Shown here in pieces: positions 1,534 to 3,053 of a DNA stretch of 53,665 nt. The notes beneath the pieces were generated by a model. It did no database searches. It was not told where the DNA came from and saw nothing but the letters and a program-made list of their open reading frames with translations. The DNA comes from an uncultured Bacilli bacterium (lineage in GTDB: Bacteria > Bacillota_I > Bacilli_A > RF39 > UBA660). Each line of letters begins with the position of its first letter. Positions within the stretch are counted from its first letter, which is position 1. The stretch covers positions 1 through 53,665 of the forward strand of contig CANQMM010000004.1 of assembly GCA_947624955.1 (NCBI GenBank), read 5' to 3'. The translations under genes were made by a program, and so were the position numbers.

Positions 1534-1623
1534 ACTCGAAAGTATGTACGCTATCGCTAATGTAGACAATTGAATTTCTTATGTAGACAAAATTATAAAT
1601 TGATTTAAATTTGTAAAAAAATA

Positions 1624-1725
1624 ACCAATTTTGAAAATTGAAGCTTATTTTTATGGCAATTTGTTAAAAATCTAGGGGGTTTTAACGAAATTGACTTATT
1701 TTTTTGCTTCAATTTTGAAAATTGG
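1624..1725. repeat. ~102-nt extended imperfect palindrome
   Basis: Outer arms CCAATTTTGAAAATTGAAGC (1624-1643) and GCTTCAATTTTGAAAATTGG (1706-1725), 19/20 complementary; inner arms aatttgttaaaa/ttttaacgaaatt. Confidence 0.75.
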
Positions 1726-1729
1726 CTTT

Positions 1730-1757
1730 TTGACTTTTATTGGTTATTGAGTATGAT
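1730..1757 (+). promoter_or_regulatory. Sigma-A type promoter for the small hydrophobic peptide gene
   Basis: TTGACT (1730-1735), 16-nt spacer, TATGAT (1752-1757). Confidence 0.55.
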
Positions 1758-1821
1758 ACCTCTTCGGAAAGACGCATTGTGCTTGCCTTCATTCCTACGA
1801 GCTAGTTTGGAGGCGGTGTAG

Positions 1822-1908
1822 ATGAAAAAAGATTGTCAAATCTTATTTCACTATATTATTATTCTATTACTCCTAGTAATAATCATTTACTTGCTTAATC
1901 AGCAATAG
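1822..1908 (+). CDS. 28-aa hydrophobic single-TM peptide MKKDCQILFHYIIILLLLVIIIYLLNQQ, type I toxin-like
   Basis: ATG preceded by GGAGG (1809-1813) at 8 nt; TAG stop; absent from the >=60 aa ORF track. Confidence 0.6.
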   Translation: MKKDCQILFHYIIILLLLVIIIYLLNQQ

Positions 1909-1942
1909 AATTTGAATATTCAGGGGGTTTTGGAAATAACAA

Positions 1943-1972
1943 AGCACTAGCAAGCTCGTGCTAGCGCTAGAC
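1943..1972 (-). terminator. Possible terminator of gap
   Basis: Minus strand AGCAC..GTGCT hairpin followed by TTGTTATTT, downstream of the gap stop. Confidence 0.4.
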
Positions 1973-2042
1973 CAAACAGGTAAGCGCTAATGCGCTTTCC
2001 ATAATTTTATTATACTACTTTTTTAATAAATTACAAACTAGA

Positions 2043-3053
2043 TTATTTTATTTGACATAGCGTTTTGGCAGTACGCATCATTTGTGCTGTATAACCCATT
2101 TCGTTATCATACCAAGCGACAACTTTAACTAATTGTTTGCCATCACTTTCCAAAACAGAAGTGGAAAGTAAGTCGACTAAAGCACCGCATTTTTTCCCGA
2201 TGATATCACTAGATACTACCGGATCCATAGTAGCTTTAAGAGTTTCATTTTGATTGTTGATAAATAAATTATTTAACTCTTCGACAGAGGTATTTCTTTT
2301 TAACTCCAAAGTAACATCAATTACTGAACCGTCGCTTACAGGAACACGGAAAGCATTACCATCCATTTTACCTTGTAAAGAAGGAATAACTAAACCAATA
2401 GCACTAGCAGCGCCGGTAGAAGCAGGAACGATATTCATTGCACAAGCTCTACCCCGACGGGCTTTAATACCTTTTTTGTGAGGAACATCTAGAGTTGCTT
2501 GGTCATTGGTGTAAGCATGAACGGTAGTCATAAAACCTTTTTCGATACCAATATTTTTTTCAATGACATTTAATACCGGAGCAAGACAGTTGGTAGTACA
2601 AGAGGCAGCGGAAATAATGGTTTCACTACCGTCTAAGATATTATCATTAACATTATAAACAATAGTTTTAACATCGCCTTTAGCAGGAGCGGAAATAATA
2701 ACTTTTTTAGCGCCCGCAGTGATATGTTTCATAGCATCTTCATATTTGGTAAATAAACCAGTACATTCAAAGACTACATCGATATCTAAATCACGCCACG
2801 GTAAGTTGGCCGGATCTTTTTCACTAAATATTTTAATATGTTTTTTATTGTTAATAACTAAATCGTTATCCACAAAGGAGATAGCTTCTTCGTGAAAACT
2901 ACGATGATTAGTATCGTATTTAAGTAAATAAGCAAGAGTTTCTGCATCTGTTAAATCGTTAATTGCGACGACATCAAAATCAGTTCCGGTAATCATTTCT
3001 CTAAAAGCTAAACGGCCGATACGGCCGAAGCCATTAATTGCTACTTTAATCAT
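2043..3053 (-). CDS. gap: Glyceraldehyde-3-phosphate dehydrogenase
   Basis: MIKVAINGFGRIGRLAFR; catalytic SAASCTTNCLAP. Confidence 0.98.
   Translation of the reverse strand: MIKVAINGFGRIGRLAFREMITGTDFDVVAINDLTDAETLAYLLKYDTNHRSFHEEAISFVDNDLVINNKKHIKIFSEKDPANLPWRDLDIDVVFECTGLFTKYEDAMKHITAGAKKVIISAPAKGDVKTIVYNVNDNILDGSETIISAASCTTNCLAPVLNVIEKNIGIEKGFMTTVHAYTNDQATLDVPHKKGIKARRGRACAMNIVPASTGAASAIGLVIPSLQGKMDGNAFRVPVSDGSVIDVTLELKRNTSVEELNNLFINNQNETLKATMDPVVSSDIIGKKCGALVDLLSTSVLESDGKQLVKVVAWYDNEMGYTAQMMRTAKTLCQIK

Follow-up and report, generated by a model that had tools for sequence, protein, structure and literature searches.

Several described type I toxin-antitoxin (TA) systems resemble the locus reported here. 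In hok/Sok, the two ends of the full-length hok mRNA pair with each other and so keep it inactive, and in the aapA/IsoA system of Helicobacter the IsoA RNA overlaps the 5' part of the aapA mRNA. TxpA/RatA and BsrG/SR4 of Bacillus subtilis combine, in a low-GC Gram-positive, a small membrane toxin with an antisense RNA lying over the 3' end of the toxin mRNA; to our knowledge, neither forms a multicopy family of the kind described below. The convergent RNAs of par_pAD1, the Fst system, meet at the terminator and at the leader (PMC7472228). In AapA3, the Shine-Dalgarno (SD) sequence is masked by local hairpins while the mRNA is still being transcribed; afterwards a 5'-3' interaction keeps the message locked, and trimming of the 3' end releases it (PMC6733600, where hok folding is also cited). 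Other short type I toxins act at the membrane (PMC8309996).

The window, i.e., the whole 53,665-nt stretch of DNA that was analysed, carries a gene for a 28-residue hydrophobic peptide that a preliminary description had called type I toxin-like. This is still the best reading, given a convergent antisense RNA, a 5'-3' lock on the mRNA, multicopy and tandem loci, conservation of the frame and early stops in some copies, and we put at roughly 85% the probability that the locus represents a new, lineage-specific family of chromosomal type I TA-like modules. As read from its sequence, the module joins an Fst-like convergent gene order with a hok/AapA-like end-to-end mRNA fold. Its ORF and copies, the selection on its frame, both promoter-like sites, the hairpins, the end-to-end stem and the cognate pairing emerge from sequence and covariation (Table 1).

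Table 1. Predicted parts of the module, with window coordinates and the evidence for each
Feature	Position	Strand	Evidence or remark
Imperfect inverted repeat, 113 bp, two CAATTTTGAAAATTG palindromes, upstream of promoter	1619..1731	.	common to all window-type copies
Peptide mRNA promoter TTGACT-N16-TATGAT (-35, 1730-1735; -10, 1752-1757)	1730..1757	+	10/12 consensus matches
5' arm of end-to-end mRNA stem, GGAAAGACGCATTGTGCTTGCC; probable antisense-hairpin landing site	1766..1787	+	fold, covariation, cognate pairing
SD-masking hairpin, GCCUUCA (1785-1791)/UGGAGGC (1808-1814)	1785..1814	+	fold, paired changes
Shine-Dalgarno GGAGG	1809..1813	+	8 nt before ATG 1822; exact in 51/73 family members
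Hairpin burying start codon and KKD codons	1815..1857	+	stem varies two-sidedly elsewhere (GGAUU/AAUCC, GAUGC/GCAUC)
ORF for 28-aa hydrophobic peptide, putative toxin	1822..1908	+	copies, family profile, pN/pS 0.25
Conserved 3'UTR block GGGGGTTTTGG	1923..1933	+	soon after stop in all window-type copies, G002 and G200
Predicted antisense RNA, ~65 nt, two hairpins, complementary to mRNA 3'UTR	1937..2001	-	covariance model R1, fold
Antisense terminator hairpin, AGCGCTAGCACGAGCTTGCTAGTGCT then TTTGTTATTT	1943..1968	-	covariation
3' arm of end-to-end mRNA stem, GGTAAGCGCTAATGCGCTTTCC; complement of antisense 5' hairpin	1979..2000	+	fold, covariation
Antisense promoter TTGTAA-N16-TATAAT	2009..2036	-	near-invariant, 10 aligned copies

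The promoter, SD, ORF and complementary leader segments (TTGCCTTC, 1783-1790; GGAGGCGG, 1809-1816) that had been proposed were all located. A promoter-like site alone is weak evidence, because such sites are common in this stretch (32 found vs. 24.6 expected); here both hexamers and their spacing are conserved in nine aligned copies, with TATGAT, TATTAT, TATCAT and TAATAT as -10 variants. The mRNA is likely to start near G1766, so that the leader, originally given as about 60 nt, is indeed present but would measure about 56 nt. The 28 codons translate to MKKDCQILFHYIIILLLLVIIIYLLNQQ, in which KKDCQILFH is followed by an unbroken stretch of I, L, V and Y residues with one predicted membrane span, a plan that recurs in about 80 loci. 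Conservation of the copies, of the frame and of the SD-masking stem shows the predicted gene at 1822-1908 to be more than a chance occurrence.

That the peptide belongs to no known family by sequence holds for Pfam, NCBIfam and PHROGs: there was no Pfam or NCBIfam match for 22 family members, no PHROGs family matches the peptide and, for Hok, there was no Pfam match at E <= 1. An Rfam search gave nothing meaningful, and no paper mentioning the KKDFLI motif turned up in the literature searched. The peptide had been likened to Fst, Ldr and TxpA, which stand as functional analogues only, the Fst/Ldr signature being absent: the window peptide contains no W and no P, and has neither the conserved Trp nor the PXXXG motif, and instead of a charged C-terminal tail it ends in NQQ and carries its charges at the N-terminus (KKD). 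Because it does not bear this signature, we have not filed it under Fst/Ldr.

Within the 65 contigs (1.17 Mb) of its own genome, the peptide is encoded repeatedly. It occurs unchanged, in different surroundings, on C4 (the window), C18, C25 and C35, the 87-base ORF being identical in all four while promoter, leader and flanks vary. There are also two close variants (C41 and C58; MKKDADS[I/T]LFQRIIIILLLRIILYL[I/L]KLL), several divergent paralogs, and at least one pseudogene, on C56, in which the peptide stops at codon 6 yet the antisense is intact. Alignment of the copies shows a common block of about 430 bp, outside which the flanks are unrelated, and their neighbours, read from translations, are presumably gap, mutM, a sigma-factor operon and surface-protein genes. 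In several copies the MAG contig breaks off; the one on C6 was considered as an orphan antisense and rejected, as it is only truncated in this way. On C25, unrelated sequence occupies the antisense position and the contig ends there; this sequence (L006:1-88) contains two hairpins (GGCC-UUAUA-GGCC and CCACGUC-UUAUA-GGCGUGG), the same 77 bases open contig C3 (C3:1-77), and it is possibly another insertion or a replaced antitoxin.

Other elements lie in and around the window. The 113-bp inverted repeat with its palindromes also occurs alone, upstream of ssb (C27 2984-3104). Repeats of TGTAGACA adjoin the module (window 1555-1600; C56 3548-5392) and resemble the termini of an IS3-like element; on C56, a transposase sits between a poly-C leader and the peptide gene. 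A family of promoters with a G tract in the spacer, TTGACA-AATATGC-(G)n-TATCCT, is represented in the window at 1533-1502 (minus strand), before a gene at 1473-97 (minus strand), and has paralogs on C35, C41, C56, C12, C22, C42, C23 and C19; spacers in nine paralogs are 16, 16, 17, 18, 18, 20, 20, 21 and 21. These promoters look phase-variable and appear to drive surface proteins with a camelysin-like N-terminus as well as another membrane protein. Positions 1-30 of the window form a strong terminator-like hairpin, CCACTAGCTTAGCTAGTGG-TTTTTT.

Homologs were found in a genome of the same genus (G002) and in one of another genus (G009); a covariance model of the antisense region found G200, whose peptide (MSKKDFLILILLMIIILLIVYK) then led to G006, G019 and G020. 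Judged by the gap gene next to the module, the closest records that bear a name are MAGs of uncultured gut Bacilli/Tenericutes. A profile built from all of these homologs finds the peptide family in 101 of the 193 genomes of the taxonomic family (E <= 0.05) and, at E <= 0.001, in 161 of the 288 genomes sampled from the order, with up to 13 copies in each, some in tandem arrays, in a group with genomes of 1-1.6 Mb. Outside the taxonomic family there was one partial match, of 16 residues in G547 (class sample of 395 genomes, about 350 of them outside), and by this search the peptide family is essentially absent from the class beyond this group. Neither a peptide scan of a genome contig collection nor two viral scans gave a relative. 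Weak matches of the first search (L010 in G024, L011 in G014 and L012 in G013) were chance hydrophobic stretches at those places, and a viral pattern match, L065, fell in a GC-rich phage that has no hydrophobic ORF at that position, and was likewise due to chance.

Eighty loci were read out, spanning many genera with wholly different flanks; nearly all are free-standing ORFs of 21-29 aa, each with its own SD (mostly GGAGG) and with the pattern M-x-KKD-[F/C] followed by hydrophobic residues (M-x-KKD-[F/C]-LI...). Substitutions shun codon position 2 and favour position 3, and pN/pS is 0.25 across 33 independent pairs; the pattern of substitution indicates that the frame is under purifying selection. 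Some loci are pseudogenes, with in-frame stops at codons 6-7. The earlier claim of a real gene is upheld by the identical peptide in four contexts and the kept frame; among relatives that frame is conserved, with a pN/pS well away from the dN/dS near 1 that had been named as one part of a refutation.

A convergent antisense gene overlapping the 3'UTR of the peptide mRNA, absent from the preliminary description, is predicted on the minus strand. Its promoter (2036-2009) is followed by GGAAAGCGCATTAGCGCTTACC..., a terminator-like hairpin (1968-1943) and TTTGTTATTT, and both promoter and RNA are conserved across ten aligned copies. Covariance model R1 recovers the antisense in the own genome (seven loci), G002, G009 (two tandem copies) and G200; in G009 (L018:3616-3906), a single peptide gene is followed by two tandem antisense units. 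Family-wide, the promoter score is 9.7 for the antisense strand vs. 8.8 for the opposite strand and 8.5 for shuffled sequence. The terminator stem carries repeated two-sided changes (UA->CG, AU->GC, CG->UA), and among 59 distinct mRNAs a change of both partners is seen in 111 cells vs. at most 53 in 200 arm swaps, although permutation and arm-swap tests, here and below, correct only partly for shared ancestry. With regard to the bidirectional intrinsic terminator typical of the Fst/Ldr superfamily, the antisense side has a hairpin with a T run, and relatives have TTCC-TTTTT after the 3' arm on the other; since the plus-strand hairpins of the window lack a good U run, the mRNA 3' end (~2004) is a guess.

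This arrangement resembles Fst/par_pAD1, which has a short single-span peptide, convergent promoters, a short antisense over the mRNA 3' end, an SD masked by a leader stem-loop, and complementarity between leader and antisense hairpin of a direct-repeat-like kind (PMC7472228). It differs from Fst in that the window-type mRNA adds a long stem joining its two ends, and there is no profile match. The predicted antisense over the mRNA 3' end recalls TxpA/RatA, for which Pfam and NCBIfam gave no profile match; the toxins of TxpA/RatA and BsrG/SR4 are longer.

The full window mRNA has a predicted folding energy of -82.8 kcal/mol (z = -7.3), with 1766-1787 paired to 1979-2000, the SD in one hairpin and the start codon in another. 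Burial of the SD by the leader, as originally suggested, is borne out in that the TTGCCTTC and GGAGGCGG regions pair in this fold and the stem covaries among close relatives; in its distal pairs the two sides swap together between copies (CAAUU/AAUUG, CAUU/AAUG), and over 73 members the paired fraction of the SD is 0.785 vs. 0.65 in shuffled leaders. The end-to-end pairing recurs in other letters in G002 (ACGUAUU/AAUACG), G200 (GAGGGAGUGUUAUC/GAUAAUGCUUCCUC) and G006 (GUUGGGCGUUACC/GGUAACGCCCAGC), and it is the main long stem that RNAalifold finds in 59 mRNAs. In these, 0.88 of outer and 0.86 of inner stem cells are paired vs. 0.33-0.54 when the arms are slid, and 144 cells show two-sided changes vs. 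swapped-arm means of 17.3 and 37.3 (about 55 in total), the pairs being counted on the same alignment that predicted the stem. Cognate arms pair at -30.0 kcal/mol, and none of 2000 random pairings went below -24.4; at 63 of 73 loci the pairing is better than in all 30 dinucleotide shuffles. A cruder test on longer segments gave -42.4 for cognate pairs, -32.8 for non-cognate homologs and -26.0 for shuffled sequence, with some members showing no cognate excess. Judged by alignment and folding, the two ends of the mRNA pair with each other, with strong covariation across the 59 mRNAs.

Pairing of the two ends of the full-length mRNA is the likeness to hok/Sok; Hok, however, has about 50 aa and an overlapping mok frame, for which the leader here, at about 56 nt, leaves no room, and Sok targets the leader. 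The aapA/IsoA system is similar in its toxin of about 30 aa, its several chromosomal copies, its long-distance 5'-3' mRNA interaction and its local SD-masking hairpins, one of which uses ORF sequence (PMC6733600), whereas here the antisense lies over the 3'UTR and the peptide is without a family match.

The 5' arm of the mRNA also prefers the terminator hairpin of its own antisense (cognate -17.7 vs. permuted -14.35; best of 2000, -15.8), so that a single arm of the leader could pair with either the mRNA 3' end or the antisense. Strict loop-loop kissing between GAGC loops of leader and antisense failed when tried by hand in G002; pairing at the level of the arms held family-wide.

Other readings must be weighed against these features. 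The peptide might be small, membrane-bound and non-toxic, a regulator or a subunit of a membrane complex, its synthesis tuned by an antisense and a folded mRNA; hydrophobic single-span peptides can be regulators and purifying selection fits any function, but up to 13 copies and tandem arrays in genomes of 1-1.6 Mb, copies that share no neighbour genes where looked at, and several translational locks together with pseudogene copies form the pattern of a type I toxin rather than of a single-complex regulator, and we consider this alternative unlikely. We give far less credence to the idea that the ORF is incidental to a repeated element, one that is REP/MITE-like or carried along by an IS: the low pN/pS, the free-standing ORFs with an SD at nearly all 80 loci in many genera and different flanks, and the lack of visible terminal repeats on the ~430-bp block all speak against it, even though that block is dispersed among unrelated flanks, the upstream inverted repeat is also present by itself at another place and one copy has an IS3-like transposase as a neighbour. 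A leader peptide or attenuator would account for a short ORF followed by hairpins near 1943-2000, but is hardly credible, as the gene that follows, gap (2043-3053), runs opposite to the peptide ORF, the hairpins are part of a convergent RNA that has a promoter of its own, and the neighbours differ at every copy looked at.

For the type I TA reading, we infer transcription, toxicity, neutralisation and processing by analogy with AapA3 (PMC6733600) and par_pAD1 (PMC7472228). The plus-strand mRNA (~1766-2004) would encode a 28-residue single-span membrane peptide, a putative toxin that, like other short type I toxins (PMC8309996), may disturb the membrane. At full length the mRNA would be silent, locked end to end. 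The antisense from the convergent promoter would overlap the 3'UTR, and its hairpin arm could pair with the leader; once bound, the antisense would stop translation and lay the mRNA open to RNase III. Should the antisense supply fail and the mRNA 3' end be trimmed, the end-to-end stem would open and the toxin would be made.

On balance we lean, by a small degree, toward a still broader picture: a new type I TA family amplified across an order of genome-reduced gut Bacilli and built on a three-way RNA switch, in which the leader arm is shared by the mRNA 3' end (silence) and the antisense hairpin (neutralisation), so that the leader, 3' end and antisense of each copy co-evolve as a self-recognising set. 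The module is covered by none of the curated protein or RNA families searched, and genes of this class tend to escape standard annotation on account of minimum ORF length. It unites two regulatory designs usually found apart, and its natural alleles, which number in the dozens and have their RNA parts aligned, are material for studying the evolution of antitoxin specificity. If functional, the module is present, often several times over, in more than half of the genomes sampled from the order, which measure only 1-1.6 Mb.
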